A stretch of DNA of 49,537 nt, taken from assembly GCA_024698585.1 (NCBI GenBank), contig JAILRB010000039.1:1-49537 (forward strand), in the 5' to 3' direction. Below the pieces are notes generated by a model. It was not told the origin of the DNA, searched no databases, and saw only the letters and a program-made list of their open reading frames with translations. Each line of letters starts with the position of its first letter. Position 1 is the stretch's first letter. This DNA is from Eubacterium sp. Lineage in GTDB: Bacteria > Bacillota > Clostridia > Lachnospirales > Lachnospiraceae. A program made the translations under genes and the position numbers. Shown here in pieces: positions 14,953-31,251 of the stretch.

Positions 14953-15099
14953 AAATAAACCCTCATAATTGTTTTATCATCGTTACATCCTCAAGTATTC
15001 TATCATAGAAGCCAGAAAAAGCAATCATTTCCATCTTTTCCTTTAAAGATGACGAAAGATGTGCTAAGGTGTTTACAGCAAGAAAACGAGGTGGAAGTC

Positions 15100-16221
15100 A
15101 TGAAGCAGATTAATCGGAAAACAATCATTCAATTTATGAAGCAGGAGTTCGTATTGTGCATTGCCACAATCCTTGCAGTAATCTCCTGTGCTTTTGTACC
15201 GGTTTCAAAGAACTATCTGGACTACATTGACTTTCGGGTTTTATCCCTTTTATTCTGTCTGATGCTGATTGTGGCAGGATTTCGTTCCATTGGTTTCTTT
15301 GACGTTCTTTCAGAAAAACTCTTTCACTTCACCCACTCCATTCGCTCCACGGCAATGGTTTTTCTTTTGCTATGCTTTTTCGGAAGCATGCTCATTACCA
15401 ATGATGTGGCCTTAATTCTGTTTGTTCCTTTTTCCATTTTCACATTGAAAAAGATTCTGAATCCTCATCAATTCATTCTTTTAATTGTATTGGAAACTCT
15501 GGCAGCAAATCTCGGCAGTATGTTTACGCCTATTGGAAATCCACAGAATCTCTATATTTTTAGTGCCTACGAAATGGAGTTACTTTCTGTTTTCAAAACC
15601 ATGTTTCCCTACACTGCTGTTTCGTTTCTTTTATTACTTGTCTCTGTTTTCTATTTTCCCAAAACCGCGATTTCAGAGCGACAGATTCAGCATCCGAAAA
15701 CAAATCTAAAAAAATATGCCTTCCGTTATGTGTGTTTTACTGCATTGTTTTTTATCACACTGACAACGGTACTGCGCATTACGCCTTTCTGGCTTACCCT
15801 GATTACCTGTATTTTTATAACCTTCTTTATCAACCGTAGTTTATTTGCAATGGTTGATTATTGTCTGCTGCTTACCTTTATTGCTCTCTTTATTTTTGTT
15901 GGCAATATGGGACAAATTCCACAGATTCAAAGCACCATGGGAACCCTTGTTTCCGGAAATGAAATTCCGGTTTCCATTGCCTTAAGTCAGGGAATCAGTA
16001 ACGTTCCCGCCACACTCCTTTTGTCTCAATTCACAGAGAACGGAGCCAAGTTGCTAATCGGCGTGAATCTGGGAGGTCTTGGAACGCTGATTGCTTCCAT
16101 GGCAAGTTTAATTTCCTACAAATTTTATGTAAAAGAAAAAGAAAGCAGGGGATTCACCTACTTTCTCTTCTTCACCTTATTAAACGTGGCTTTTCTTGCC
16201 ATCTTACTCCTCTTCTGTTAG
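15100..16221 (+). CDS. Ion transporter superfamily (SLC13/CitMHS/ArsB-like) permease
   Basis: The 373-residue membrane protein has about 10-11 helices. The pattern is that of the IT superfamily: FGSMLITNDVALILFVPFS in the first half, the hairpin region ANLGSMFTPIGNPQNLYIFS, and a second-half ISNVPATLLLSQF with its N-P turn. Such proteins move anions such as dicarboxylates, sulfate or arsenite, or act as sodium/proton exchangers; the substrate is not determined here. I start at the ATG after GAGGTGG (the methionine of MKQINRKT) rather than the ATG 17 codons earlier. Its last 18 bases overlap the end of the converging GGDEF gene, with no terminator between them. Confidence 0.82.
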   Translation: MKQINRKTIIQFMKQEFVLCIATILAVISCAFVPVSKNYLDYIDFRVLSLLFCLMLIVAGFRSIGFFDVLSEKLFHFTHSIRSTAMVFLLLCFFGSMLITNDVALILFVPFSIFTLKKILNPHQFILLIVLETLAANLGSMFTPIGNPQNLYIFSAYEMELLSVFKTMFPYTAVSFLLLLVSVFYFPKTAISERQIQHPKTNLKKYAFRYVCFTALFFITLTTVLRITPFWLTLITCIFITFFINRSLFAMVDYCLLLTFIALFIFVGNMGQIPQIQSTMGTLVSGNEIPVSIALSQGISNVPATLLLSQFTENGAKLLIGVNLGGLGTLIASMASLISYKFYVKEKESRGFTYFLFFTLLNVAFLAILLLFC

Positions 16222-17262
16222 GCCAGCCCGTTTCTTTTGGATTTTCTTATCTCGATACATTTTCTCGTCTGCTTCCTTTAATAAATTATCAATGGTCTTA
16301 TCTCCGTTTTGCAGGCTGACTCCCACGGCGCAGGGATATCCGATTTTCTGACATTCCAAGCGAATCCGGTCAGCCATCTGAACAATGGTTTCCTTGTCTT
16401 TTTTACTGAGAACCAGAAATTCATCGCCTCCGGTACGGTACAGTCGACTTCCCGGTTTCAAAAGATTCGTCACCGCTTTAACAATTAACACCAGAACTTC
16501 ATCCCCTTTGGCATGTCCATATTCATCGTTAATCAATTTGAAATTATTTATATCTAACAGAATCACTCCATTGATTTTACTTCCCACGGCTTCCACATCT
16601 GCATAAAAGGATTGTCTGTTAAACGCCCTGGTAAGAGGATCCACCTTTGAATTTTCATTATGGACATACAGCAGATAAAACATAATATTAATTATATAAA
16701 GTGGATTCAACAAAATTGTGTTATCCGTAATAATATCCAAAGCAATTGTAACGGAAATGTTCGCCAGTATGTACACCAACAATTTGGTTTCCCGAAACAG
16801 ACGCTGGTTAATATACTTCACGGCTTCCACGATTAAGATAATCAATAATACGGCCCGACAAAAATCCGGCACCAGACTGGATGCCCGAACCATCCTGTCA
16901 TCCTGAAAACCATAGGAACTGACAGAAAGAAAATATGCAATCGGGCTGATAACAATCATCGTCACAAACAGTTTACTGAATCGCTCCGAAAAAAGTCTGA
17001 TTAAAACAATGATTAACATTGGTTTCAGGCACAGATTGGTAAAGTTAAAAAACTTATAAAGCAATTCATGATCCTGATTGCCTTCTACCATTCCGCTTAA
17101 AAAATCAGTCAACGCAAGAATTGATAAGAAAAATATGGTCCGGTAGATTTTCTTCTTTGATATTTTGTCCGCAAGAAACATAGATCTTAATGCAATGGAA
17201 AGACCGCCTAAAACAATCAGATAGATATATGCCTGTTTTAAAAAATTTAAAAATAGAATCAT
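16204..17262 (-). CDS. Membrane-bound diguanylate cyclase (GGDEF)
   Basis: The 352-residue protein has about six membrane helices in residues 1-200, a sensor module I do not recognise, then a GGDEF domain (about 205-340). The signature is intact (TGGDEF, 278-282) and the metal aspartate is in LLDINNFKLIN (D237), so it should make cyclic di-GMP. The RxxD inhibitory site usually found five residues before GGDEF is not evident. It starts 17 bases after the EAL gene, with GAGGGG before the ATG, and is last in the XrtG unit. Its 3' end overlaps the opposing permease gene by 18 bases. Confidence 0.9.
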   Translation of the reverse strand: MILFLNFLKQAYIYLIVLGGLSIALRSMFLADKISKKKIYRTIFFLSILALTDFLSGMVEGNQDHELLYKFFNFTNLCLKPMLIIVLIRLFSERFSKLFVTMIVISPIAYFLSVSSYGFQDDRMVRASSLVPDFCRAVLLIILIVEAVKYINQRLFRETKLLVYILANISVTIALDIITDNTILLNPLYIINIMFYLLYVHNENSKVDPLTRAFNRQSFYADVEAVGSKINGVILLDINNFKLINDEYGHAKGDEVLVLIVKAVTNLLKPGSRLYRTGGDEFLVLSKKDKETIVQMADRIRLECQKIGYPCAVGVSLQNGDKTIDNLLKEADEKMYRDKKIQKKRAGLTEEE

Positions 17263-17279
17263 ACGCTACCCCTCACCAA

Positions 17280-18608
17280 CTATCGATACCCCTTTAATAA
17301 ACGTTCTTCAAACTGGTCTCTGGCCAAAGGTTTATCATATAGGTATCCCTGAACATAGTAACAACCAATTTCCCTCAGAAATTCTTTTTGCTCCTCTGTT
17401 TCAACGCCCTCTACAATCACGTTCATTCCCAGGTCTTTTGCCATATCAGCAATTCCTTTTACAATAATCCGACCTTTCTCCTGGAATAATGCCGCTGTAA
17501 TAAACGAGCGATCAATTTTAATTTCATCCATGGTAAAATCACGCAGCATGGACAATGACGCATAACCGGTTCCAAAGTCATCTACGGAAGTCCGTATGCC
17601 GTTCGCCCTCATCTTCTCCAGAAAATAGTGCATTTTTTCATTCATTTTCTGTGATACTGTTTCCGTGATTTCTACCGTTATTTTTTTCTTATCAATATGA
17701 TATTTTTCCACTACCGCATTAATCTTGTCTGCCAGCTCCTCATCTTTCAGATTCACTCTGGAGAAATTAACTGATAGTGGAACTAGTTCATTCCCTTTCT
17801 CCTGCCAGACAGACATAAACTTACACGCCCGCTCCAATACATAAAAGTCTAATTTATCAATCAATCCTGCCTGTTCTAAGACCGGAACGAATTCTCCCGG
17901 AAAATATTTACAGTCCGGTTCAATCCATCTTGCCAAAGCTTCCACGCCAATAATCTTGTCCGTACGAATGTCAATTTTGGGTTGAAGCCATAACTGAATA
18001 TATTCTTCCTTCAGTGCAGTAGGAAACATATCTTCGATTCGTCTTCTTGTTACCATCTGCTCGCAGATTTCCTCGGAGATGAAGACCACCCGTTCTCCAT
18101 TATTAACCCCATAAGAGAGTGCAAGTCTCGGTTCCACTACCAGTTTTTCCGTATTGGCCGTGGTGGCATCAATTGGCGCAACCCCTGCAAAGGTCCTGAT
18201 AATCATGTCTACTTGTTTTCCGTCCACATCCAGATGAACTTCAAAGTTGTCTAAAAGATTATTAATCTCATCATAACTTTTTTTCTTCACCAGTAATGCA
18301 AATTTATCATTGCCTCGATGCCCCACCAATTCTTCCTGATCACATCGACGGACTAATTCTTCTGCATACAGTTTGACAATTTTTTCCCCTTGCTCTTCGC
18401 CATACAACCGTTTCATGGCATCAAAATCTTTAATGGCAATAATCAATGCAAGATACTTATTATCCTGATATTTCTTTACAAACCCAATGGCTTTTTCGAT
18501 ATATTCTTCTCTGCCAAGTAACCCTTCCACCTCGGTATTCTTTTGCATTTTTTCAGCCAATATTATTCTTTTCTTCTTTGCCATTTCCTTTAAACTTTTC
18601 TCTCTCAT
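17280..18608 (-). CDS. Cyclic di-GMP phosphodiesterase, degenerate GGDEF plus EAL
   Basis: The 442-residue soluble protein has a degenerate GGDEF domain (about 30-180; the signature reads RGNDKF, so no cyclase activity is expected), followed by an EAL domain. The EAL catalytic set looks complete: GVEALARW (about 222-229), SVNFSRVN, EITET, VDDFGTGYASL, EIKIDRSF and VEGVETEEQ. It should hydrolyse c-di-GMP to pGpG, and the degenerate GGDEF may bind GTP as a regulator (known for related proteins, inferred here). The start is an ATG after AGGAGG with an eight-base spacer; an in-frame GTG two codons upstream is too close. It lies 18 bases after the PTPS-like gene, so it is probably in the XrtG transcript. 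Confidence 0.92.
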   Translation of the reverse strand: MREKSLKEMAKKKRIILAEKMQKNTEVEGLLGREEYIEKAIGFVKKYQDNKYLALIIAIKDFDAMKRLYGEEQGEKIVKLYAEELVRRCDQEELVGHRGNDKFALLVKKKSYDEINNLLDNFEVHLDVDGKQVDMIIRTFAGVAPIDATTANTEKLVVEPRLALSYGVNNGERVVFISEEICEQMVTRRRIEDMFPTALKEEYIQLWLQPKIDIRTDKIIGVEALARWIEPDCKYFPGEFVPVLEQAGLIDKLDFYVLERACKFMSVWQEKGNELVPLSVNFSRVNLKDEELADKINAVVEKYHIDKKKITVEITETVSQKMNEKMHYFLEKMRANGIRTSVDDFGTGYASLSMLRDFTMDEIKIDRSFITAALFQEKGRIIVKGIADMAKDLGMNVIVEGVETEEQKEFLREIGCYYVQGYLYDKPLARDQFEERLLKGYR

Positions 18609-18626
18609 AGGCACTTCCTCCTATCA

Positions 18627-18998
18627 TCACTTCTCTTGTAAGTAGTCAATGATATAAATTCGTGACGGTGTTTCTGCTACTTCAATCTGAATTAATATCC
18701 AGCCCTCCTGATTTAATCGTTCCCCAATTTTATCTCCCAGATATTTCGTTATATTTTCCAGTGTAGGATTCATCATATTAAATGGTTCCACTTCATTAAT
18801 GTACTGATCCTGATATGGAGCTAAAATTTCCTCCACTGCTTTTTCCACGTCGGAAAACAAAACGAAATCTTCCACGACCTTAATCACATCCAAAGAAATT
18901 TCCCAGGTATGAGGATGAATTTCCCCCATTAATTCATTGATTACAATAGAGTGATTGGCATTCAAATAAAATTTATATTTATACTGATTATATTTCAT
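18627..18998 (-). CDS. 6-pyruvoyl-tetrahydropterin synthase-related protein, exosortase G associated
   Basis: The 123-residue single-domain protein has the PTPS/QueD T-fold pattern. The three zinc-ligand histidines are at H16 (LNANHS) and H28/H30 (IHPHTWEI), NPTLEN is at 77-82 and the pterin-anchoring glutamate is E109 (AETPSR). The catalytic cysteine normally just before HGH is absent (MGEIHPH), and the Asp-His dyad reads DQ (64-65), so ordinary PTPS or QueD chemistry is unlikely. It matches what I recall of the TIGR03112 domain of exosortase G systems. Its start overlaps the YfhO gene by 11 bases. A sister copy is fused to the large membrane protein at the head of the locus. Confidence 0.85.
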   Translation of the reverse strand: MKYNQYKYKFYLNANHSIVINELMGEIHPHTWEISLDVIKVVEDFVLFSDVEKAVEEILAPYQDQYINEVEPFNMMNPTLENITKYLGDKIGERLNQEGWILIQIEVAETPSRIYIIDYLQEK

Positions 18999-21546
18999 TA
19001 TTATTTCCAGCCTTTCCTAAGTTATTCTTCCGTTTTCCTTTTCGCCATTGAATGAAAATCACTCCAATATAAATCAGGAAGAATCCCCCCGAAACTATGA
19101 GACATTTTTTCAAATGCATCGGTGTATATTGTAACGCAACCTTATGTGTTCCCTGTTTCACATTTTCAATCGTCAATAAACAATTCTGACTTTTTCCGGC
19201 GGTTACCGGTCTTCCATCCAGCTGAACCTCCCAATTCTCGCTGTATGGAATTGTCGTAATGATTCGACCATCCTGCTCCAGGGTAACCTCTGCATTCAGG
19301 TGCGAATCTGTCATTAAAGTCACTTTTCCCGATGACTTCTTTAAGCGTTTCGTATATTTCTGCAACACTGCATAATCTTCGGAGTAGAACAGCGGTTCCA
19401 TCATTTCACCTTCCCCTTTATACTCCACGCAAACATCTAAAACACTTCCGGCGTTAAAGGTGCCCAGAGGTACAACGCCCTTATTATACACGTCGTAGTA
19501 TTCTCCCAGGTCTTTCTTATTTACCTTGACTTCCATCAGTGAGATTGTCTTTCCTAATGGCATTGCCATATAAAGATATCGATGATTATCTACCCGGAAA
19601 CAATAGTGGATTTTCCGTTCTGATTCCACATATCGATCCACCGGTCCCATTCTCTGATAGATATCATCATCCAGTCCGGTATAACTCTTATAAATCCGGT
19701 TCTGGTAATCAAAAATATCACCTGTCGAGGCTGAATTTTCATCACCATATCCGGCGAAAACCAATCCTAAGGCATTATTGTTCTTATATACATTCAGATT
19801 TTCATAGGTCGCAATCAGAGATAATTTTTTATCCAGTTTTTTTCTGGACACAATATATTTTACTCCTAACAGGGAGTCTCCCCCCAAAGTGGATCCCTGA
19901 TTATAGTAGCACCAGAAATCCTGGTTTCTGGTATATCCCAGATTTTCCATAAACTCTAATACAAACGGATTATCAGACGAACTAAAATGAGATAATCCGT
20001 GATAATTCAATAACATGGAATCATTCAATGAATTGTAAAAAGTTTTTTCCACCCGGTAAAAATCATCATCACGTTCCTTAATATAATCAATACACGGCTC
20101 CATTTCCTTAACATAGCCACTAAGACTGTTGTCTGCAAAATCTGTAGCAACCAGTTTTTCATTACCCTGAAACAGGATACTTGCCACTACAATGAAAAGG
20201 AATGCAATCCTTACAATCGGAACCAGTACTTCTTCTGTTCTCTTTTGTCTCAACAACAAGAACACCGTTGCCAAAATCAATACCATATCCATGGAAAATG
20301 TAACTTTTCCCATTCCCTCTGATACCGTTAATGCAGTAACGACCAAAAGAATCATCATCAGCGTTCCCACTAGAATAATTTTCCATGATGCACTGATTCC
20401 CTCTAAATTCTCATAGCATCGCCACGCACTGAAAATGGCGATAAATATGAACAGGAATGTATAACGGAAATAGAACTGATTCGGACTGGCAAACCCATGC
20501 CAGATTGCATCTGCAGTGATGAACATAGTACTTAATACGAAGACCATGGTAATCAAAAACACCATCACTTTTTCCCGTACCTTAATTCGATTGTTAAAAT
20601 AAAATGCTAATGCTAAGTACAACAACGGAATGGTAAAAAATACATAAGGAAGATTTTTTTCCAGAGTATAACGTGTTCCATTGTATCCTAACAGACCATT
20701 GATAAATTCCATCGCCGTAATCTGACACTTGGTGGAGATTTCAAACTTTCCACCAATGGATCTGCTGGAATTCTGAGAGGCAATTGCCGGTACCAAGACC
20801 GCTACTGCCATACCCAGCCCAACCATTGTTGATAGACCAATGCTTAATAAATCTTTTCCTTTTTCACCAATCTTCTCACTCCCCGTAATCAGTCGATATC
20901 CCACATACATTGCCACAAAAACGCAAACCATATATCCGGTATAATAACAACTGACAATCAGCAAAAATAAACTTGTAATATAAACAACCGGCCCCTTTTT
21001 CGCAAAAATCCGTTCCACTCCTAAAACTACCAGCGGTGCCAGATAAACTGCGTCCATCCACATCAGGTTAAATGCGAAGGCAATGGTGTAACCGCTTAAT
21101 GCATAGGCTGTGGAGAAAATTACATTCCGGTAATAGCTTTGTTCTTTTTCTCCCAGCATCAGGAAATAGAAGCATCCGGCCAATCCGATTTTCGCCAAGG
21201 TTATAATCATTACCACCTGTGGTAAGTCACTCTTATCCACAAGAATGTAGATGATATTCAATGGGCTTAATAAATAGTACGCAGCCATCCCTGCCATATC
21301 TCCCCCCAAAGTTTTGGAGAAAGAATAAAACAATCCATTTTTTGAAAAGACAACGTCTTTTAAATATGCAAAGAAATTTACATACTGCCCGGATAAATCG
21401 GAGACTAAAACCGTCTTGGAATGATATGGGTAGATTCCCACCCCATAATATAAAAACAGCATCAGCAACACCGGTAGAATCAACGCTACCAATGCTTTTA
21501 CGCTTTTTTTACATAATACCAATTCTAATTCGCTTTTTTTCTCCAT
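18988..21546 (-). CDS. YfhO-family multipass membrane protein (GT-C-like)
   Basis: The 852-residue protein has an N-terminal region of about 12 membrane helices (20-465), a large extracytoplasmic part (470-820), and one final helix (about 825-842) with a lysine-rich tail. The loop after the first helix (VSDLSGQYVNFFAYLKDV) and LGGDMAGMAAYYLLSPLN are typical of YfhO proteins, which Gram-positives use to decorate teichoic acids or other glycans from lipid-linked sugars. The substrate is unknown. Position between the processive GT2 and the PTPS-like gene suggests a step in making or modifying the XrtG-associated glycan. The ribosome site (AGGGATGG) is modest. Confidence 0.85.
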   Translation of the reverse strand: MEKKSELELVLCKKSVKALVALILPVLLMLFLYYGVGIYPYHSKTVLVSDLSGQYVNFFAYLKDVVFSKNGLFYSFSKTLGGDMAGMAAYYLLSPLNIIYILVDKSDLPQVVMIITLAKIGLAGCFYFLMLGEKEQSYYRNVIFSTAYALSGYTIAFAFNLMWMDAVYLAPLVVLGVERIFAKKGPVVYITSLFLLIVSCYYTGYMVCVFVAMYVGYRLITGSEKIGEKGKDLLSIGLSTMVGLGMAVAVLVPAIASQNSSRSIGGKFEISTKCQITAMEFINGLLGYNGTRYTLEKNLPYVFFTIPLLYLALAFYFNNRIKVREKVMVFLITMVFVLSTMFITADAIWHGFASPNQFYFRYTFLFIFIAIFSAWRCYENLEGISASWKIILVGTLMMILLVVTALTVSEGMGKVTFSMDMVLILATVFLLLRQKRTEEVLVPIVRIAFLFIVVASILFQGNEKLVATDFADNSLSGYVKEMEPCIDYIKERDDDFYRVEKTFYNSLNDSMLLNYHGLSHFSSSDNPFVLEFMENLGYTRNQDFWCYYNQGSTLGGDSLLGVKYIVSRKKLDKKLSLIATYENLNVYKNNNALGLVFAGYGDENSASTGDIFDYQNRIYKSYTGLDDDIYQRMGPVDRYVESERKIHYCFRVDNHRYLYMAMPLGKTISLMEVKVNKKDLGEYYDVYNKGVVPLGTFNAGSVLDVCVEYKGEGEMMEPLFYSEDYAVLQKYTKRLKKSSGKVTLMTDSHLNAEVTLEQDGRIITTIPYSENWEVQLDGRPVTAGKSQNCLLTIENVKQGTHKVALQYTPMHLKKCLIVSGGFFLIYIGVIFIQWRKGKRKNNLGKAGNNNEI

Positions 21547-21566
21547 GACAACAATCCATCCCTATG

Positions 21567-22952
21567 TTACTGCTTTTCTTTTGTGATTCCGTTTACCTTT
21601 TCTTTCAGGCGATAGACAACTCTTGTAATAAACATGAAGTCATTTTTCACAACATCCTTAAAGGTATCACTTTCTTCGGTTAAGTTCTTTGTTCTCCAGG
21701 TTCCATTACTATTGATACTGTTAATGATTCCTGCAAAACGAATCCAAAACATAACAAAATTATACATTGGCAGAATCAGACATAAATACCATTTTCCTGC
21801 GTAATACCTTCGGATTTCCGGGAAATTCCTCAGAAACGTCAGAATATTAATAAAATACAATCCGCAAGAAATAATATAAAGAATATAAATCACTCCAATG
21901 GATCCTGCCACCAGTTTCATTGGGTAGTTCATAAATAACAAACAAATCAACGCAAAATACCAAATCATTCTTGGAAATGCGAAGGTATGATCAAAGACAA
22001 TCAGACGAATCATGAAATTGGAAAAGAATCCCTTCGTCAGATTCATATTATCCTTAAAAAACATATGGAATACTTCCAGTTCCCCTCGCTGCCAGCGTTG
22101 CCTCTGGGTATACATTTTATTCAAATCCTCAATAGGATCTACCATGAACAAAGCATCCTCACACATATATACTTTTTGTTTTAAATCCCTCTTAATCTGG
22201 AATGTAATCTGTGTATCTTCTCCCACGGTATCCGTATTATACAATCTCGTTTTCAAAATCGTGGATTTTCGAAATGCAGAAAAGGCACCGGATAAAGTGA
22301 AGATACTATCCAATTCTGCCTGATAATTTCGTCCCGCCAAAAACGCCTGTGCGTATTCAAAAAATTCAATTCTCCGGAAGATTTTCATATAAATGGAATC
22401 CGTCCGCTCAATGTCATCCGGATTAATCAGAATCGCTCCGGTCATACAATGAATGTTTCCATCACATTCGAACCGTTTTACCATATTCATGATGGCATTT
22501 TTTTCTAATGTTCCATCACTGTCAATATGAATGATGTACTTTCCATTGGCATTAAAGAGTGCCATGTTCAATGCCTTGGATTTTCCCTGCTTTGCATTCA
22601 TCCATTGCATTTTCAGTTCCGGATATTTCAGCTGGGATTCCTGAAATATTTCAAAACTGTTATCTTTCGATTTATTGTTTACCAGAAAAATATCTATCAA
22701 TTCCGATGGATAAGTCGATTCCGCTATGGAACGGATGCAGCCCGCCAACGTTGCCTCGCTGTTATAAATCGGAACAATGATTGTAATTTCCGGGAGTCTT
22801 CCATGAATTTCTATTTTCTTTTTATTCCGTCCCTTAAACAACAGAATGAAAAAGCCCAGAAACGCCGGGATGATTTCCATAATGATTGGAATGATAATCC
22901 AGGTCAACCAGAATATGAAGGATTTAGAAATCATTAAAATAAAATCACTCAT
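21567..22952 (-). CDS. Processive GT2 glycosyltransferase, exosortase G associated
   Basis: This is a 461-residue membrane glycosyltransferase of the cellulose/hyaluronan-synthase type, with one or two N-terminal helices and about four C-terminal helices around a cytoplasmic GT-A domain. Catalytic motifs are DSD (144-146), GEDTQ (244-248) and QRQRW (283-287), the QxxRW mark of processive polymerases. No PilZ domain follows, so direct c-di-GMP binding is not predicted. It matches my memory of TIGR03111, the glycosyltransferase that always accompanies XrtG. AAGGAGGAGG precedes the ATG, and the gene overlaps the end of xrtG by eight bases. Confidence 0.9.
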   Translation of the reverse strand: MSDFILMISKSFIFWLTWIIIPIIMEIIPAFLGFFILLFKGRNKKKIEIHGRLPEITIIVPIYNSEATLAGCIRSIAESTYPSELIDIFLVNNKSKDNSFEIFQESQLKYPELKMQWMNAKQGKSKALNMALFNANGKYIIHIDSDGTLEKNAIMNMVKRFECDGNIHCMTGAILINPDDIERTDSIYMKIFRRIEFFEYAQAFLAGRNYQAELDSIFTLSGAFSAFRKSTILKTRLYNTDTVGEDTQITFQIKRDLKQKVYMCEDALFMVDPIEDLNKMYTQRQRWQRGELEVFHMFFKDNMNLTKGFFSNFMIRLIVFDHTFAFPRMIWYFALICLLFMNYPMKLVAGSIGVIYILYIISCGLYFINILTFLRNFPEIRRYYAGKWYLCLILPMYNFVMFWIRFAGIINSINSNGTWRTKNLTEESDTFKDVVKNDFMFITRVVYRLKEKVNGITKEKQ

Positions 22953-23547
22953 CTTCCTCCTCCTTCTCGTAAGAAAACTGTCCAACCTTTTGACGCTTAA
23001 TATGTGGTTTCGTAAACACTGAGAAATACAAATAAATTGTCAGTGCGTAGAAAACAATTCTTCCGAAAATGGAATGTGCAAAATAAAACCAATCATTTCC
23101 TCCGAAATAGATAATGGTACAAATCGTAAAAATACGAATGACATTTGCAGCAAACACAAACAGTATTCCTAAGATGGAAATCTTTATTTTCTCCTTGGTC
23201 GTATATATTTCAAAAAACCAAAGCAATGCAAGAAACGCCATGATTTCAATCACACCGGAACATTCGAAGTCGACATACAATGAGATGGATGCCGTGTTTT
23301 TCGGAATAAACAGCATACAATACTGATAATAGGAATCATACATTCCTGTCACTTCTCCCACTGCTCCGGAAACAAATGCCACGCCTCGCATCATGGGTAC
23401 CACAATAAACTGTTCCACCCACAACAACATGAAAATAAACACACCAACAGACCCGATTAAATATCGGAAAAATTTTAAGTTTGCCCGTTTCAAAGTCCAA
23501 ACGATATAAAGCCATATCACAAATCCTAATATTTCCAACAATAACAT
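22945..23547 (-). CDS. xrtG: Exosortase family protein XrtG
   Basis: This is a 200-residue integral membrane transpeptidase of the exosortase/archaeosortase family, with about five to six helices. The catalytic triad is visible: C96 in FECSGVIEI, R138 in AANVIRIF and H158 in YFAHSIFGR, in the normal order and spacing. Exosortases cut C-terminal sorting tripartite signals (motif, helix, basic end) and are thought to attach the protein to another molecule. The Gram-positive G type is named from comparative genomics. It lies three bases after the gene of its apparent substrate and overlaps the GT2 gene. Its own ribosome site is weak, suggesting coupling to the upstream stop. Confidence 0.92.
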   Translation of the reverse strand: MLLLEILGFVIWLYIVWTLKRANLKFFRYLIGSVGVFIFMLLWVEQFIVVPMMRGVAFVSGAVGEVTGMYDSYYQYCMLFIPKNTASISLYVDFECSGVIEIMAFLALLWFFEIYTTKEKIKISILGILFVFAANVIRIFTICTIIYFGGNDWFYFAHSIFGRIVFYALTIYLYFSVFTKPHIKRQKVGQFSYEKEEEDE

Positions 23548-23550
23548 AGT

Positions 23551-24786
23551 CTATTTTTCTCTTTCTATTTTTTCATGTTTCATCCATCGTCTTCGATTCA
23601 AGAGTAACAACGCAATTCCTACACTTGCCAGACAAATAACAACGCCCAGATATGGGGCAGTCGATGTTGCGGAGCTACTAATTCCATGGTCAAACAAGTT
23701 TGGATTCGTCAGGGTAATTTCTTTCACATCATTAACTTCTATTCCATAAATTATCCTGAAGATTTCCTTCGGAATCATTACTTCTACCTCATCCGGTCCA
23801 TTAGAATAAACGACTAATTTTCCCTTTGCATCATCAATTAACGTTTCATCATCTAAGTGCGCACTTTTATTTTTATAATAGATTTTCAATTCATATTGAT
23901 TCGGTGACAGGTTGTATTGTGGAAGTGTTCTATGATCCGGCAATACCATATTCAGCGATACTCCGTAATCTCCCACGGATAACATATACTCATTTCCATT
24001 AAAAGGGTCGTTCCATCCTCCAATCATCTTTACATGGAAATAAATATTATCATCATCTACCGCAATGGAAAGAGAACGACAATTATTCGCATTTCTTTCA
24101 TTTTCCGGCATATTCCAGTTTGTCAGGAAAATATGTGGATAATTATCCCAATCTGAGAAATTTCCATCAATGGTTATTTTCCCATTGGAAGACGGTGCAA
24201 CGATTTCTTCCGGTGTTTCCTCCGGTGTCACATTTTCCGTGGTTCCAGCTTCCTGAGTTGTGGAATCATCATTGCCGGAAGACAATACCTGAATGGTCTG
24301 CGTACTACTATAATCCGTAAACAAACGAACTGACGCAACGTCTCCGAATTCATCCAATGGAATTGCCAATTCGTACAGATATGTTCTGCTCTTGTCTCGT
24401 TTTCCCACAGAACCGGACAGCACCTCGTAGCCACTTTGCTTTCTGACTCTCAGATTTGATTTATTTCCGGTAGAAGAAGTTTCCTCGATAATCAGGGCAT
24501 GTTCCTGACCGTTCTTCAGCATCAGCGTCGGAGCTGTATAGGAAAAGTATTTTTCCCAACTATTGGTAGAATTTTCCTTTGCATACATATACAGCATATT
24601 TCCCTTCTGGACAAAGGCAATATCCTGATAAAACGTGCTGGTCATGCTGGTTTTTTCCACGCTATCCCAATCACTGAATTTTCCATCGATCTCAATCTCT
24701 TTCGCTCCAACGGATACTGTAAAACAGATTGCAAGTAATAATCCCAAAAGCATATAAGAAAATGGTTTCATAACTTTTCTTTTCAT
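23551..24786 (-). CDS. Secreted Firmicu-CTERM protein, predicted XrtG substrate
   Basis: The 411-residue protein has a signal peptide (MKRKVMKPFS then a hydrophobic run to about 28). Two similar modules each begin with IDGxFSDWD (about 31-41 and 205-214), which resemble CBM9/DOMON-like sugar-binding folds, and a Thr/Glu-rich linker joins them (about 172-200). The C-terminus is a sorting tail: STAPYLGVV, a helix (379-396) and the basic cluster RRRW (398-401). This is the Firmicu-CTERM form recognised by XrtG (TIGR04145, from memory), and the gene sits directly before xrtG. There is no LPXTG, so a sortase is not the expected processor. The ATG follows AAGGAG with an eight-base spacer. Confidence 0.88.
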   Translation of the reverse strand: MKRKVMKPFSYMLLGLLLAICFTVSVGAKEIEIDGKFSDWDSVEKTSMTSTFYQDIAFVQKGNMLYMYAKENSTNSWEKYFSYTAPTLMLKNGQEHALIIEETSSTGNKSNLRVRKQSGYEVLSGSVGKRDKSRTYLYELAIPLDEFGDVASVRLFTDYSSTQTIQVLSSGNDDSTTQEAGTTENVTPEETPEEIVAPSSNGKITIDGNFSDWDNYPHIFLTNWNMPENERNANNCRSLSIAVDDDNIYFHVKMIGGWNDPFNGNEYMLSVGDYGVSLNMVLPDHRTLPQYNLSPNQYELKIYYKNKSAHLDDETLIDDAKGKLVVYSNGPDEVEVMIPKEIFRIIYGIEVNDVKEITLTNPNLFDHGISSSATSTAPYLGVVICLASVGIALLLLNRRRWMKHEKIEREK

Positions 24787-24815
24787 CCTATCATCTCCTT
24801 GCTTATTCAACTCTA

Positions 24816-27746
24816 TCACTTCTTGTTTCCTGATATCCGATGTCGGTAAACACCTACGCTTATCAGCATGATTAACATCATGAAAATACTGATTCCGACA
24901 CCGATTTTAAAATTATTGTAATCAAATGTTAATACGGTGGTTCCTTTTTGAACCATTAGCATATTGTTTACATTTCTTATTTTTTTACTTCCCTGAAAAA
25001 CTTTCTGGTAGGAAATCGGGACAATCATTTGATCATCTTTGCTCTTCACTACCACGCGGTCAAATTCATAAGAAATGTCCACATTTCTCAGTTTCCGCCT
25101 TGGACTGGTTCCTTCCTCTAACTGGAAGAAATCATCCAGAATGAACTGTATGGTTACATCATTCGCTTCAATCACATGATACAAAATATTTAATCCCATA
25201 AAATGTAAATGATCTGATTTCGTTCCGGCATATGGAAGAATTCTTCCTGCCATTTCACAATAGCCATCTACCTGGTCCATATTTTCCACATATACTGTGT
25301 TCCACTCATGATAATCCTTATAAAACTTCATCGGCACAATTTTTCTGTCTTTGTAAGTAAATTCCGGGAAGTTATTTTTAAAGGAAATGGTCTGCGCCGT
25401 TACTCCCAGGAATTTCTGACGGTTGGTCAGTGGATCTGCCGGAATGGAATCCATATCAATATAGATGTCGATTCCCTGCTGCTCTAATTGCAGAACTTTG
25501 TTTTCTGCATCCTTTAAGATTTTATAAGTAAATCCTGATAAATATATTTTTTTATAGTGAGATAACTCTTCCACAGAGTAATCATCCAGATTGTTACTTT
25601 CTCCATTTTCAAAATATGGATAAATCAACGAAACATTTCTGGAGGATTTTCCAATGGCAATTCCCTCATATTCCGTAATGTTTCCCATATTCCGATTGAT
25701 ATCTTTATGGTAAATGAGATATTTTTGTTTAAGACTTCCATCCATCAGTTTAAAGCCATACTTTTCACTTGCCTGCTCCAACTTCTGTCGGTCCTGCTGT
25801 GAAATAATCAGACCTTTTAAATTAAACAAAATGCTGTCGCATCCCATTTCGATGCTTCGGTCAAAAATATAGTCAAATCGTTTCGTATAAACCGCATATT
25901 TCAGCATCTGGATATTATCCGTAATCACATTGTATTTCATAGAAGATTTATTGGAGAAAATAATGTCCTTCCCCTGACTTACCATGTAATATCCCGGATA
26001 GGTTGCCTCCTGGTCAATGTCCAGATACAGCAGGTTATCATTTGTGACTGATTCTGCCTGAATTACTGCACCCTTGATTCGTTCGTTCTCCTCAAACAGG
26101 GAAGTATCCCTGGTATGCAGAACAGCCTGCATTCGGTAAACATTACTAAAGCCTAAAATCACAAGCAGCGCTATCAAAATCTTTCGGTTACACTTTTTCC
26201 ATTCCAGAAGAATAAAGGCAACGGAAAGATACATGATAATGACAGCCACCGGCAACTGATATAGAGCAAACACACCTGCCACGATACCGATTATCGCGTA
26301 CATTCGAATCTGTTTATATGCAAAAAACAGACATGCTGCCAAAATAATAAATATGGTAATTCCCACATAAAATCCATTATTATTCGTATAGAATTCCGGA
26401 ATACTGCCATTCTTATATGCGCTATACAGCCATCCTGCGGAAAGTCCCAATGCCATGATCATGCACCCTGCAGTCATGATTAGTTTCTTGTCTTCCTTGA
26501 TATAAAAAACCTTTACGGTAAAGATAATGAAAATTCCAATAAATGCAATAATGGCAATGGACAAATCTGCCAGAACCATCAACCACATGGAAACAATAAT
26601 CTTCAGTGCCATGAATCTTCCCCGGTTCTGAAAATACTTCGCAATATAAGCAAAGCAAAACGGAAGGAAGGATAATGCCACCAGAACTTTAATGTCTCCG
26701 GTAATCAGATAATGTCTGCTAATTTCCGGCATAGTGAACCATAAAACACCACTGAGAAAACCAATCTGTGCCTTATCGTACACTCTTCCCAGAAAAGTAA
26801 ATCCACAAACTGTCACGCAGAACACGATGGACAATGTAGCAACATAGCTGGCAATCATATTCGATCCGAATAAAAATCCCATCAGTGCCAGAATATAATA
26901 GGTTAACGGCTCACTGTGCATAAACATCATATAGCCGTCATACCAGGATTTCATGTAAATCGGACTGATAATCCCCTGTTTTAACTGACTCAGCAGATAT
27001 CGTGCCTTTCCCAAATGGATATAGACTTCTTCGGTATTCCGGAACAATTCTGTCCGTTGCAGTACGAAGAATATCCCGGTTGACAAAAGGATTGTCGCCA
27101 AAATATATAAAAAGATTTCCAACTTATTCACGCCGATTTTCTTAATATATCCATATTGGTCTAAATCGTAAACTGCTCTGTGGTGTTCCGAGCTGTATTC
27201 TTTGTCAATGTACTGCGGCTCTTCGTATATGGTTTCCTGCGACAGTTTTTCTTCAATACTCCGCTCTTCTTCCTGTCTTTTCTGTTCCTGCTTTTCCCGG
27301 TATTTTTCCAGAACCGCTTCTTTATATGTTTCTATATATTCATTCAGATTTTTTTCATAGTCACTGGAAAACTCATTGATTTTTCCTGTAATAAGAAAAT
27401 CTGAAACAAGGTATTTTCTCGATGGTGTTTCCCCGACGGCAATGCTTTCCATCTGAAAATCCGGATTATCCAGTTCCTGTTTTAACTCCTGAAAGAATAC
27501 TTCTCCCATATCTTCAATGGTCGCCTGTGTTCCCCGGAAGTTCTCCAAGTCATTGATGTACTGGCCTTCAAATTGTTTGAAATAGTTTTCGATTGTCTTT
27601 TCATTATCATTGAACAATGCGAATACTTTTTGATGATCGCGAATCAGAATTTCTATATCCAATGTATGATTATGGATTGGATTTTTCCCCATGGAATGCA
27701 AAATATTCAGTTTTGTCCGATATTTATAATAATATTCCCGATTCAA
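24816..27746 (-). CDS. PTPS-like domain fused to a large GT-C-like membrane protein
   Basis: The 976-residue protein has three parts. Residues 1-118 are a second PTPS-like domain with metal-type histidines H17, H25 and H27 and the glutamate E106 of GETPSR; the catalytic cysteine and Asp-His dyad are missing (GQ at 61-62). A Glu/Lys/Gln coiled coil fills 130-172. From 208 come about 12 helices, a large extracytoplasmic domain (about 550-940) and a last helix with a basic tail, like GT-C or YfhO-type proteins. I chose a TTG start at 27746 because GAGGG stands eight bases before it and the first residues then align with the free-standing copy; the TTG five codons earlier lacks a ribosome site. 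It heads the XrtG unit. Confidence 0.85.
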   Translation of the reverse strand: MNREYYYKYRTKLNILHSMGKNPIHNHTLDIEILIRDHQKVFALFNDNEKTIENYFKQFEGQYINDLENFRGTQATIEDMGEVFFQELKQELDNPDFQMESIAVGETPSRKYLVSDFLITGKINEFSSDYEKNLNEYIETYKEAVLEKYREKQEQKRQEEERSIEEKLSQETIYEEPQYIDKEYSSEHHRAVYDLDQYGYIKKIGVNKLEIFLYILATILLSTGIFFVLQRTELFRNTEEVYIHLGKARYLLSQLKQGIISPIYMKSWYDGYMMFMHSEPLTYYILALMGFLFGSNMIASYVATLSIVFCVTVCGFTFLGRVYDKAQIGFLSGVLWFTMPEISRHYLITGDIKVLVALSFLPFCFAYIAKYFQNRGRFMALKIIVSMWLMVLADLSIAIIAFIGIFIIFTVKVFYIKEDKKLIMTAGCMIMALGLSAGWLYSAYKNGSIPEFYTNNNGFYVGITIFIILAACLFFAYKQIRMYAIIGIVAGVFALYQLPVAVIIMYLSVAFILLEWKKCNRKILIALLVILGFSNVYRMQAVLHTRDTSLFEENERIKGAVIQAESVTNDNLLYLDIDQEATYPGYYMVSQGKDIIFSNKSSMKYNVITDNIQMLKYAVYTKRFDYIFDRSIEMGCDSILFNLKGLIISQQDRQKLEQASEKYGFKLMDGSLKQKYLIYHKDINRNMGNITEYEGIAIGKSSRNVSLIYPYFENGESNNLDDYSVEELSHYKKIYLSGFTYKILKDAENKVLQLEQQGIDIYIDMDSIPADPLTNRQKFLGVTAQTISFKNNFPEFTYKDRKIVPMKFYKDYHEWNTVYVENMDQVDGYCEMAGRILPYAGTKSDHLHFMGLNILYHVIEANDVTIQFILDDFFQLEEGTSPRRKLRNVDISYEFDRVVVKSKDDQMIVPISYQKVFQGSKKIRNVNNMLMVQKGTTVLTFDYNNFKIGVGISIFMMLIMLISVGVYRHRISGNKK

Positions 27747-27787
27747 CGATTCAGCCCTCAATTCTTAAAAATGCATACAACTACACA

Positions 27788-27985: not shown

Positions 27986-29332
27986 TTATAACATATATCT
28001 CATTGTAATCACAGAACGAGCCAGCAGAGCCAACCAAATCACAATAAAAATGTAATCCGGTGTAAACAGCCTGTTCCGTAAATTACCATCATCGGTTCTC
28101 CCGTTGATGCTCAATCTCAATTCCAGATGTTCCATTGCATATGCAAACATATAACTCATGAAAAAGAGAATGGAAATAATATAGCGTCCCTGCGGTTCAT
28201 AATCTCTATAATATGATTGAATAAAATGCAACAGAAAAGTTGCCAAAGATGAACAAAACATCAATCCCATCAGGTATCGATGCTTCCCCTCCGGTTTTCG
28301 ATTTAAGACAACCATAAGGCATCCCAGGATTCCCGCCAGAATTATTGCATAATAGATTCCATACATCTCAGCCGGATTAAGAATATCCATATTTCCAAAC
28401 ACACCGATTACACTCATAAATGTGATTCGAAGCCAATAGAATTCTTTTTCCGTAAGAAATGTAATCAGGGAAACTCCTTCTTTCCACGGAGAATAATATG
28501 TATGATCCTTATTCCCATTCGCAATTACTGCCTCCCAAATCTTCCACTCTGTTGCAGTTCCTAAGAAATCTCCGTTATGATAAATTGCATTTCTAATAAA
28601 AAACCAGCCCGCCAGCAACATACAGATTGCCGCAATCAACGACAGTCTTTTTAGTACTTCTGCCTTGGACAGTTCCTTATCTCTGAGTAATGAAATAAGA
28701 ACCAAGATTCCACACATTAAAATCCATGCATAAATTGTGTAATAAGACAGCAATGCAATGGAAAGTCCCACTGCCAGTCCAGCACAGTTTTTATAACTCC
28801 AATGACTTTCATAACCTTGCCAAAAATAGTACAAAATGATTGCCACAGAAGCCAATGCAATGGAATCATTGTTCTGATACATTCCAAGAAACAGTACCTG
28901 TGGCATAAGGCAAATAAACATTGCAAAAATCAAAGGTAAGTTTTTCTTTCGAAATAATTTATGCCCGAGTTTGATGCAGAAAACACTGCATACCGTTATG
29001 GAACAAACACTGCACATTCTGGATGCAATCATCAGGGCCGAAGGTGCATTGGTAAACAATGACACAATTTTCATAAAAAGGGCACTGACAATTGCAGACA
29101 AATATGGCCTAAGCGCATAGGAAAAACCATATGATTGAATGATTGTTTCCGGTTCGTTTCCTGTCGGAAGAGTTCCGGTCTTAAAAATCCAATTGGATAA
29201 CAGTTGTCTTGCTCCTTCATCCGGACATGGTTTCAATGGCAAAATCATTGCCCCTGCAAAGCAAATTCCGAAAACAGCTATGATTAACGCTATTTCTTTT
29301 TTTGTAAATTCTTTCCAAAAACCAGCTTTCAC
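27986..29332 (-). CDS. Multipass membrane protein, DUF2142/GT-C-like
   Basis: The 448-residue protein has about 11 helices. The first extracytoplasmic loop has the acidic motif KPCPDEGARQ (about 33-42), and a late helix starts with EPQGRYIISIL, both typical of DUF2142 and related GT-C glycosyltransferases that use lipid-linked sugars. Donor and acceptor are unknown. It follows the double GT2 by only 11 bases and ends at a clear terminator, so the pair probably builds one surface glycan. Its nearness to the XrtG locus suggests a shared polymer, but the terminator argues that it is a separate operon. Confidence 0.75.
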   Translation of the reverse strand: MKAGFWKEFTKKEIALIIAVFGICFAGAMILPLKPCPDEGARQLLSNWIFKTGTLPTGNEPETIIQSYGFSYALRPYLSAIVSALFMKIVSLFTNAPSALMIASRMCSVCSITVCSVFCIKLGHKLFRKKNLPLIFAMFICLMPQVLFLGMYQNNDSIALASVAIILYYFWQGYESHWSYKNCAGLAVGLSIALLSYYTIYAWILMCGILVLISLLRDKELSKAEVLKRLSLIAAICMLLAGWFFIRNAIYHNGDFLGTATEWKIWEAVIANGNKDHTYYSPWKEGVSLITFLTEKEFYWLRITFMSVIGVFGNMDILNPAEMYGIYYAIILAGILGCLMVVLNRKPEGKHRYLMGLMFCSSLATFLLHFIQSYYRDYEPQGRYIISILFFMSYMFAYAMEHLELRLSINGRTDDGNLRNRLFTPDYIFIVIWLALLARSVITMRYML

Positions 29333-29343
29333 TTTACCCCTCT

Positions 29344-31251
29344 CTATCTCGCTTTTCGCTGTTCTACCACGGGAAGAATTTGGAAATCTTCCCGGTCCAA
29401 AGAAAAGTTAGGATTATAATAAGGATCTCCCAACTCCAACTCTTTCATCCAGCGCTGCTGAAAATCCGTTGCTTCCGCAACCAAACATTTTTGTTTTTTC
29501 AATGTATCATCCGTACCACGGCTTTTCGATTCATAATGATATAATTCCGCAAACGGAGTCCATACAATCAGGTATCCTGCCTTTCTGACACGCATACAAA
29601 GATCCACATCATTGAATGAAACTGCAAACGTTTCATCCAGACCACTGACTTCGTCCCAGACATCCCGTCTCATCATAATGCAGGCACCGGTTACCGCACT
29701 TAGATTCTGAGCATATAATAGTCTTCCCATATATCCGATATGGGCACGGTCAACACCACGGAAGAAATGTCCAGCAACGCCTAAAAGACCTATTCCCAGA
29801 CCTGCATGCTGTATTGTGTCATCCGAATAGTATAATTTCGCTCCCACAATCCCTACATCTTCTCGCTGTGCAAACATTAACATTTCCTGAATCCAATCAG
29901 CAGCGATGACTTCCGTATCATTGTTCAGTAAAATCAGATACTCTCCGGAACAGTATTCTGCTCCAAAATTATTAATTGCAGAATAATTAAACGGTCCTTC
30001 CCATACGACCACCTTTACATTTTCCTGTTGTTCCAATGTCTGATAGTATTCAAAAATCTCCGGATCTGTACTATTATTTTCCACAATCACGATTTCATAG
30101 TTCTGATAACTACTCTTCTCAAAAATTGAATCCAGACATTTTTTTAAATCTTCCAAATGATTGTAATTCGGAATCAGGATGGAAACCTTCGGCTTTCCCT
30201 GAATCTTATATTTCACACGATATATTGTCAGACCTTCCGCTACCGTGCTGACTTCTCCTTCCTTTCCCATGCGTTCGACACGCCTCTCGATTGCCTTGAT
30301 TCCTGCTTCCACCACATATGGTTTTACCCCAATCTCTTCTGCAACAGAACCCGGATGTGCCCTCCAATAATAGAGAATTTCCGGAATATGTGCCACACGT
30401 TTTGCTTTTTCTGTCAGACGCAGCACAAAATCGTGATCCTGAGAACCGTCACAGGACGGATCAAATTTTCCAACTTCATCCATAAGTGTTCTTTTAAACA
30501 CTGTAAAATGACAAATATAGTTATTTCCACAAAGAGTATCCGGCGCAAAATCCGGCTTAAAATGTGGGTTAAATGCATCTTTCGGGGTGACATGAAAAGT
30601 CGTTTCATCGGTATAGACAAAATCGGCTCCGGTCTCCATAATGGTTTTCGTCACCTCATATAACGCTGCCGGGTGTAAGAGATCATCGTGGTCAAAAAGC
30701 CCGATGTAATCCCCCGTAGCCATATCCAGACATTCATTGGTATTCCCGGAAATCCCATAATTCTTATCAAGTTTTTTATACTTGATTCGGGAATCTTTTT
30801 CGGCATATTCCGAACAAATCGTTCCCACATTTCCATGCTCAGAGTCACTGCCATCTGCCATGCAAAGTTCAAGATTTGAATATGTTTGATGGAGTACCGA
30901 TTCTATCATTTCTCTCAAAAACTTTTCAGGTGTATTATACAACGGAACGATAATACTATATTTGATTTTTTTCTCGAAGGTATGCTTCCTTTGCTGTTCC
31001 AATTCTGCATCCGTAAATAACGGTGTTTTCGCAATTAGTTTCGATGCATTCATGCCTCGAAGTTTATGTCCGATTCTCTGACGCGTTGTGCGAAATCCAA
31101 ACATTTTATAACTCTTTACTGTTTTACGAATTAAAGAACTAAATCTGTTTCTTTTGAAAAACCAATTTGCCTCAAGCTTCAGCAGACGGATTGGCTTTTT
31201 TACCTTCCATATCAATGCTTTTTTTTCTTCGTTCTTGTGATTCTGTTCCAT
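29344..31251 (-). CDS. Bifunctional glycosyltransferase with two GT2 domains
   Basis: The 635-residue cytoplasmic protein has two GT-A modules in tandem. The first (about 95-330) has SIIVPLYNTPEKFL and FDHDDLLHPAAL, with the DxD-like DHDD. The second (about 350-610) has SILIPNYNHLEDL, EIVIVENNSTD, LLNNDTEVI and a SFNDVDLCMRVRKAGY segment, as in rhamnosyltransferase-like GT2 proteins. It likely adds two sugars in sequence to a lipid- or cell-wall-linked glycan; the sugars are unknown. No membrane helix is seen, only a basic N-terminus (about 80 residues). TAGGAG precedes the ATG. It lies between rlmD (17 bases upstream) and the DUF2142-like gene. Confidence 0.88.
   Translation of the reverse strand: MEQNHKNEEKKALIWKVKKPIRLLKLEANWFFKRNRFSSLIRKTVKSYKMFGFRTTRQRIGHKLRGMNASKLIAKTPLFTDAELEQQRKHTFEKKIKYSIIVPLYNTPEKFLREMIESVLHQTYSNLELCMADGSDSEHGNVGTICSEYAEKDSRIKYKKLDKNYGISGNTNECLDMATGDYIGLFDHDDLLHPAALYEVTKTIMETGADFVYTDETTFHVTPKDAFNPHFKPDFAPDTLCGNNYICHFTVFKRTLMDEVGKFDPSCDGSQDHDFVLRLTEKAKRVAHIPEILYYWRAHPGSVAEEIGVKPYVVEAGIKAIERRVERMGKEGEVSTVAEGLTIYRVKYKIQGKPKVSILIPNYNHLEDLKKCLDSIFEKSSYQNYEIVIVENNSTDPEIFEYYQTLEQQENVKVVVWEGPFNYSAINNFGAEYCSGEYLILLNNDTEVIAADWIQEMLMFAQREDVGIVGAKLYYSDDTIQHAGLGIGLLGVAGHFFRGVDRAHIGYMGRLLYAQNLSAVTGACIMMRRDVWDEVSGLDETFAVSFNDVDLCMRVRKAGYLIVWTPFAELYHYESKSRGTDDTLKKQKCLVAEATDFQQRWMKELELGDPYYNPNFSLDREDFQILPVVEQRKAR

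Follow-up and report, generated by a model that had tools for sequence, protein, structure and literature searches.

Exosortase G loci of Clostridia: a putative GGDEF-derived membrane sensor and recurrent cyclic di-GMP gene neighbours

The exosortase G (XrtG)/Firmicu-CTERM system is described by family models and by the genes that neighbour XrtG. In annotated records of Lachnospira eligens and Lactococcus lactis the genes for the CTERM protein, XrtG and a family 2 glycosyltransferase (GT2) follow one another in that order, and in print the system appears in a remark on expression in L. plantarum (PMC12854382) and as one row of a table for Levilactobacillus brevis (PMC8951740). A locus of the same kind lies in a Eubacterium sp. 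of the Lachnospiraceae, on contig JAILRB010000039.1, which is contig C7 of a 2.51 Mb genome (G000, 93% complete); the whole stretch of 49,537 nucleotides that was analysed is called the window throughout. All four family models of the system (TIGR03110, TIGR03111, TIGR03112 and TIGR04145) score above cut-off in the window and the gene order is that of the annotated records; the locus differs in adding a YfhO gene and genes for EAL and GGDEF proteins, candidate enzymes of cyclic di-GMP (c-di-GMP) turnover. What is new in the comparison of related loci is that most clostridial XrtG loci encode a GGDEF-derived sensor, the window being the enzyme-bearing variant.

The operon is read, with somewhat more confidence than doubt, as an exosortase G surface-polysaccharide system with its own c-di-GMP switch. 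The membrane GT2 would polymerise and extrude a polysaccharide, while XrtG would act on a single dedicated CTERM protein, cutting off its C-terminal signal and transferring it to an envelope acceptor. Once anchored, the CTERM protein, perhaps carbohydrate-binding (a weak lead), may anchor or organise the polymer, and two GT-C-type proteins (PTPS_related and YfhO) may add sugars from lipid carriers, aided by PTPS-like subunits. The GGDEF and EAL enzymes would synthesise and degrade c-di-GMP next to the complex, thereby switching it on and off. Most related clostridial loci would instead use a membrane sensor as the switch, typically one whose GGDEF domain is degenerate; its gene mostly stands right after the GT2 gene. 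The gene set probably builds and anchors a surface sugar, and the exosortase G system is probably under the control of a signal.

In L. eligens the sensor is a 360-residue 'hypothetical protein' encoded between the GT2 and PTPS genes; the XrtG locus of this species is part of a plasmid record of 627 kb. Gene maps were drawn for 46 distinct clostridial loci including the window, after the duplicates L050, L083 and L084 (equal to L010, L006 and L007) had been dropped. Membrane proteins of this family, about 360 residues long, are encoded in 31 loci, out of 46 in all and 42 that are readable, L004, L006, L008 and L085 being cut off before the sensor position; this wider link to a degenerate-GGDEF family had been missed in the initial annotation of the window. 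The sensor gene lies directly after the GT2 gene or a second GT2 gene in 29 loci and after a GT-C gene in L007 and L009. Four loci (L058, L059, L082 and L088) are flagged by the gene-order script for open reading frame (ORF) ends that overlap, leave 186 bases or start late; no other labelled gene separates GT2 and sensor in them. The window locus has no sensor and carries EAL and GGDEF genes instead.

As we read its layout, the sensor has two membrane helices with an extracytoplasmic domain between them, and the second helix leads through a coiled coil to a C-terminal domain. Single-sequence Pfam scans leave the C-terminal domain unnamed, so that a profile comparison was needed, and a scan against PDB gave nothing useful. 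Compared by hhalign with 39 GGDEF domains (from which L188, with an EAL and not a GGDEF domain, was left out), the domain scored 39.3 (Prob 90.4; E 1.4e-6 for one comparison), against 14.7 for the reversed alignment, 14.3 for the best of 50 column shuffles and 10.5 for the N-terminal part of the sensor. A smaller GGDEF set gave a probability of 65.4 and E 5.9e-5, with PTPS, XrtG, CTERM, GT2 and YfhO as the valid negative controls. By profile comparison, the C-terminal domain is a degenerate GGDEF domain. In a search of the 397 genomes of the family, 15 weak sensor matches in 14 XrtG-negative genomes extend past profile position 256 (matches confined to the coiled coil or N-terminus were excluded), and all 15 proteins carry a GGDEF domain when checked with our own 39-sequence profile, mainly at the matched place in 14 of them (the exception is L196); they therefore lend independent support to this identity. 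The family members in L007 and L009 are longer and run from sensor to GGDEF to HD-GYP (PF00990, 65-71 bits; PF13487 HD_5, 118-140 bits), with an HHExxxGTGYP motif, and in L052 a whole sensor is followed by PTPS.

The sensor is tied to XrtG at the level of whole genomes. XrtG was found in 29 of the 397 family genomes, in 13 of 391 sampled from the class and in 13 of 398 sampled from the phylum; of these last 13 matches, 9 are above the cut-off. The samples overlap in G000 and G180. Strong sensor matches occur in 23 of the 29 XrtG-positive family genomes and in none of the 368 XrtG-negative ones (Fisher P 4e-32), where strong means E < 1e-11, a line set after the gap to the next best match (4e-8) had been seen. 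Because the sensor alignment was built from XrtG loci, the informative half of this comparison is the absence from the 368 XrtG-negative genomes. Partial matches are included in the 23: G177, G180 and G383 match in the N-terminal part only and G265 in the C-terminal part only.

Gene identities, active-site residues and gene orders were computed directly from the sequences, and every family name tested from the initial annotation holds. More specifically, against NCBIfam models the XrtG protein scores 196.7 bits on TIGR03110 (curated cut-off 102.75), which places the 200-residue protein in the exosortase family as had been proposed; the GT2 scores 678.1 bits on TIGR03111 (cut-off 363.95), the CTERM protein 136.2 bits on TIGR04145 (cut-off 50), and the small PTPS-like protein and the N-terminal PTPS-like domain of the 981-residue protein 153.3 and 79.8 bits on TIGR03112 (cut-off 69.35). 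Pfam supplies the remainder, with 86.2 bits for the GGDEF protein, 220.6 for EAL, 519.6 for YfhO, 249.5 for PTPS_related and 30.9 for a weak N-terminal GGDEF domain in the EAL protein. The YfhO-family protein is presumably of the GT-C type.

Exosortases use a catalytic triad of Cys, Arg and His; in an alignment of 57 XrtG proteins, from which the weak match L112 was left out, Arg and His are kept in 57 of 57 and Cys in 53 of 57. The Cys-less XrtG-like ORFs (L103, L104, L106 and L107, in families f101 and f145) are about 400 residues long, twice the usual length, and carry Asn where the catalytic Cys would stand (IENSG); they are therefore perhaps no longer proteases. The GT2 motifs DxD, GED and QxxRW are kept in all 53 aligned rows, and Pfam found no PilZ domain in the window GT2, as the initial annotation had stated. 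The zinc His triad of the stand-alone PTPS-like proteins is kept in 45, 44 and 45 of 45, and a catalytic Cys within nine residues before the HxH pair was found in none of the 37 such proteins with the searched HxH motif; with the zinc triad but no catalytic Cys, these proteins are therefore probably not QueD-type enzymes. All eight aligned catalytic residues are present in the window EAL domain, and RTGGDEF is present in the GGDEF domain.

The CTERM protein ends in an ATSTAPYLG motif, a hydrophobic stretch and a basic tail, NRRRWMK. It is the only TIGR04145 protein found in the window genome, both matches to the model lying within it. Across 40 XrtG-positive genomes, TIGR04145 matches fall within the XrtG locus except for two weak ones (G066, E 1.1e-9; G372, E 3.5e-5). 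Two IDGxxxDW repeats in the protein may point to a CBM9/DOMON-like carbohydrate-binding fold, no more than a lead; a search for the fold of the family gave only AMPK1_CBM in Pfam (3 of 18 members, best E 0.0033) and no match in PDB.

As to what the machine may make, the best named NCBIfam model for the GT2 after TIGR03111 is PgaC/IcaA, and in three loci the GT2 is fused to a Sulfatase-fold domain (L049:8514-11453, L054:8535-11411 and L082:8517-11417). The fused domain of L054 matches the NCBIfam models for phosphoglycerol transferase I and for membrane-oligosaccharide glycerophosphotransferase, below their cut-offs. Enzymes of the phosphoglycerol-transferase type decorate exported glucans, and the fusions therefore point to an exported, decorated polymer. 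In L003, a metagenome-assembled relative of the window, a GH5 cellulase gene (Pfam; L003:12387-13385) directly follows the EAL gene, and genes judged by eye to encode an ABC transporter occupy the place of the GGDEF gene. The type of GT2, the Sulfatase-fold fusions and the L003 cellulase would together speak for a polysaccharide that is exported and decorated rather than for simple glycosylation of a protein. Clostan, a polysaccharide of C. acetobutylicum, was considered as a possible product, but no paper bearing on this was found in the literature searched. Separately, the GT2 ORF at L077:9635-11386 runs in frame into a DUF1810 domain.

The relatives L002-L010 are metagenome-assembled and classified as Lachnospiraceae or Eubacterium (L002-L005), as Lachnospira (L010) or as Bacillota, Clostridia or Eubacteriales (L006-L009); the XrtG proteins of L002-L005 are 84-97% identical. 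Within the clade of the window an EAL gene follows the cluster in all four readable loci (window, L002, L003 and L005) and a GGDEF gene is present in three (window, L002 and L005); L004 is cut off and excluded from these counts, and the GGDEF gene of L003 is absent, not cut off. Beyond the clade, c-di-GMP genes adjoin XrtG in four settings, namely a Lactococcus plasmid, a sensor-GGDEF-HD-GYP protein, a run of REC-HD-GYP, Hpt and GGDEF genes, and a lone GGDEF gene; the loci are L007 and L009, L079, L082 and the L. lactis plasmid pBV60. The c-di-GMP gene of L079 lies about 160 bases upstream of the XrtG cluster on the same strand. On pBV60, typed as conjugative, genes for a diguanylate cyclase, an EAL protein, the CTERM protein, XrtG, GT2, PTPS and a TIGR03766 glycosyltransferase form one run; the EAL protein has Asp for one catalytic Glu, and its Lys is unalignable. 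In genome G679, of another family, the sole GGDEF match belongs to a run of genes that follows the XrtG cluster on the same strand; its REC-HD-GYP gene starts 139 bases beyond the cluster, and Hpt and then GGDEF come next.

A GT2 tree of 53 rows sets these cases apart. The window groups with L002, L003 and L005 (100/100), with L010 (YfhO, no sensor) as sister and L046 (sensor and YfhO) next, and L007/L009, L079, L082 and L. lactis lie elsewhere, so that five c-di-GMP gene pairings are observed on separate parts of the tree. L. lactis and L090 have long branches and unsure placement, and L006 and L008, scored as having neither sensor nor c-di-GMP genes, are cut-off loci. On the simplest reading, the window lineage would have acquired YfhO and dropped the sensor before it took up EAL and GGDEF. 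On the sequences at hand, c-di-GMP genes appear to have been recruited to XrtG loci about five times, gains and losses not being firmly separable.

These recruitments do not amount to a general rule. An ordinary GGDEF or EAL gene lies within the fetched stretch in 9 of 40 XrtG-positive genomes (G000, G143, G300, G305, G307, G330, G611, G679 and G723, with G611 counted via L084) against 4.5-6.3 expected, and the GGDEF/EAL proteins relied on here were Pfam-scanned, five of the nine labels (L052, L073, L074, L076 and L090) resting on loose home-made whole-protein models. Immediate same-strand neighbours number three (G000, G330 and G611) against a rough 0.49 expected at 1050 bases per gene and a same-strand share of 0.6 (P ~0.013). 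GGDEF and EAL as general XrtG neighbours were rejected on the count of nine. The interpretation given in the initial annotation is supported in part: its idea of a surface-glycan system tuned by c-di-GMP stands along with its names, and the neighbourhood it had looked for in relatives is conserved in the window clade, but the EAL/GGDEF link does not extend to XrtG loci at large.

Several observations weigh against a c-di-GMP-switched polysaccharide machine, that weak enrichment among them. For XrtG itself, a search of open-licence literature found expression data only and no functional wet-lab data, demonstrated product or role; nor did it find, among papers on XrtG, Firmicu-CTERM or exosortase, one that links XrtG to c-di-GMP. 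PilZ has no match in the window genome. The c-di-GMP riboswitch was rejected as a means of control after an Rfam scan of the window and the loci of seven relatives gave none; the only Rfam match in the window is a Clostridiales-1 RNA, and the relatives' matches were Clostridiales-1 in L002 and GA-cis in L041. The RxxD I-site, which is not obligatory for a diguanylate cyclase, is absent from the window GGDEF domain (KPGS stands there) and from all 24 sensors, in which the GGDEF signature is lost too, leaving the EAL active site as the only known c-di-GMP-binding site identified in the operon. Single-sequence Pfam scans find GGDEF in 3 of the 24 sensors (best E 0.013), beside GGDEF_2 in one (E 0.0026) and DUF6377 in seven, all weak. 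Three of the 31 sensor loci (L041, L048 and L078) have the sensor part fused to PTPS with the GGDEF-like part missing; six XrtG-positive family genomes (the window genome G000, G078, G143, G174, G266 and G349) have no strong sensor match; and L010, the nearest sister of the window, has neither sensor nor c-di-GMP enzymes in the 10 kb read.

Three other explanations must be weighed with these points. The degenerate GGDEF domain may bind no nucleotide and instead mediate dimerisation or signalling within an envelope-reading sensor, in which case the link would be to GGDEF-fold sensing and not to c-di-GMP. We regard this as a real possibility, though short of an even one: the missing RxxD sites, the lost signature and the PTPS fusions without the GGDEF-like part all suit it, while the family members of L007 and L009 with recognisable GGDEF and HD-GYP domains do not, nor do the real c-di-GMP enzymes that replace or accompany the sensor in the window, L079, L082 and pBV60 loci. 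It is unlikely, in our estimate, that the EAL and GGDEF genes are accidental neighbours that entered a single rumen clade downstream of the cluster and act on global c-di-GMP rather than on XrtG. The marginal enrichment over 40 genomes would be expected of such neighbours, and L003, with its cellulase and transporter genes, shows that the region beyond the cluster is changeable; PilZ and RxxD searches identified no c-di-GMP receptor in the operon. Set against this are gaps of only 12 and 17 bases, the retention of EAL in every readable locus of the clade, the pairings in four other settings elsewhere on the tree and the tie between sensor family and XrtG. The window genome has five GGDEF matches, two of them in the operon, and only two EAL matches in total, of which one lies here.

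Protein glycosylation is a third and doubtful explanation, under which the GT2 and GT-C enzymes would glycosylate the CTERM protein and XrtG would anchor the glycoprotein, with no free polysaccharide. Membrane proteins of PF10131 and PF09586 adjoin the substrate gene, the nearest NCBIfam models of YfhO are PgfM1 and PgfM2 (far below cut-offs), and an extra GT2 of 254-259 residues is present in L006, L007, L009, L042, L080 and L081; of the three extra GT2s that were scanned, two gave weak matches to AglJ, PgfS or PpgS and the third a weak match to PgaC, none of them reaching a cut-off. The QxxRW motif of processive membrane enzymes in 53 of 53 main GT2s, the PgaC/IcaA kinship and the three Sulfatase-fold fusions fit a polymer better. 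With a signal-controlled polysaccharide machine as the preferred reading, XrtG loci might tentatively be regarded as encoding a new class of machines for envelope polysaccharides in Gram-positive bacteria. Their usual regulator in Clostridia would be a membrane sensor with a GGDEF-derived domain that has lost the c-di-GMP I-site and reads another ligand or partner; active GGDEF, EAL and HD-GYP enzymes would have joined these machines on about five occasions, one of them on the Lactococcus plasmid typed as conjugative. The tie between a GGDEF-derived sensor and XrtG, together with the repeated pairing with c-di-GMP enzymes, offers a concrete handle on exosortase G, and makes the XrtG system a candidate c-di-GMP target in Lachnospiraceae, in a genome that shows no PilZ match.

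The eight-gene XrtG locus described in the initial annotation is confirmed by the ORF map, which places eight minus-strand ORFs at the expected positions with the same gaps and overlaps when well-supported starts are used (Table 1). From the GGDEF gene towards the 981-residue protein the intergenic gaps are 17, 12, 20, 3 and 29 bases, and the two overlaps are of 11 and 8 bases, the starts being those with a good ribosome-binding site (GT2, ATG 22952; CTERM, ATG 24786). For the 981-residue protein the start codon is unsure: TTG 27761 has a poor ribosome site, and the next Met codon lies at 27692. At the other end, the GGDEF gene overlaps the 3' end of a convergent plus-strand gene (15049-16221) by 18 bases, and a terminator-like hairpin (16170-16136) lies immediately 3' of it; another (21496-21458) lies within the 5' part of the YfhO gene. 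Terminator-like sites number 14 overall against 9.4 in shuffles, and promoter-like sites in the window are not enriched (40 against 46.3 in shuffles).

Table 1. Genes of the XrtG operon in the window
Feature	Position	Strand	Basis
981-residue membrane protein: N-terminal PTPS-like domain (TIGR03112) and PTPS_related GT-C-type membrane domain (PF10131)	24816..27761	minus	NCBIfam and Pfam
Firmicu-CTERM protein, likely dedicated XrtG substrate	23551..24786	minus	TIGR04145; longest ORF start 24819
xrtG, exosortase G; Cys96, Arg138, His158	22945..23547	minus	TIGR03110 and active-site alignment
Processive-type GT2; DxD, GED, QxxRW; without PilZ	21567..22952	minus	TIGR03111, Pfam; longest ORF start 22985
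YfhO-family membrane protein	18988..21546	minus	PF09586, 519.6 bits
Small PTPS-like protein; zinc His triad present, catalytic Cys absent	18627..18998	minus	TIGR03112
c-di-GMP phosphodiesterase candidate: degenerate N-terminal GGDEF and EAL	17280..18614	minus	Pfam and 8 aligned catalytic residues
Diguanylate cyclase candidate: Pfam-unmatched N-terminal region and GGDEF (RTGGDEF intact, RxxD I-site absent)	16204..17262	minus	Pfam, motif

Upstream of the operon on the same strand lie genes for a membrane protein with no Pfam match above cut-off (27986-29332) and for a double GT2 protein (29344-31251); both are placed outside the conserved unit because L002, whose XrtG is 97% identical, shows no counterpart of the membrane protein and no more than a fragment of the double GT2. 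The Clostridiales-1 RNA (RF01699, 60.6 bits) is on the minus strand at 35434-35556.

Exopolysaccharide machines with related regulators offer the closest comparison for the design of the XrtG loci. Cellulose synthase BcsA is likewise a GT2 with QxxRW that is linked to c-di-GMP; the likeness drawn in the initial annotation to cellulose-type systems holds for a PgaC/BcsA-like GT2, with a weak match to the NCBIfam CelA/BcsA models, but not for control through PilZ, a domain found neither in the window GT2 nor in the window genome.

The available part of the report on the Listeria Pss operon (PMC4125290) describes a GT2 (PssC) operon whose last gene encodes the degenerate-GGDEF protein PssE, with diguanylate cyclase and phosphodiesterase genes in a separate operon that includes a glycosidase. 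Pss differs in having a BcsB-like PssD, with no XrtG or CTERM protein mentioned in that part of the report, and PssE is a tested c-di-GMP receptor, whereas the sensors of XrtG loci lack RxxD. In PelD and BcsE, according to a review (PMC8461298), a degenerate GGDEF domain also regulates an exopolysaccharide machine, and PelD shares with the sensor its membrane helices and predicted coiled coil; PelD and BcsE each use an I-site to bind c-di-GMP, and the XrtG-locus sensors have no such site. The sensors, being without RxxD, therefore cannot be classed as c-di-GMP receptors of the PssE/PelD type. The gts operon of L. acidophilus with dgcA-pdeA sets a BcsA/PgaC-like GT2 beside a degenerate EAL receptor (PdeB), a diguanylate cyclase and a phosphodiesterase, and its DgcA raises exopolysaccharide and co-aggregation; 'exosortase' is absent from the main text of that report (PMC6123363). 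In place and design the XrtG sensor resembles PssE, PelD, BcsE and the gts operon.

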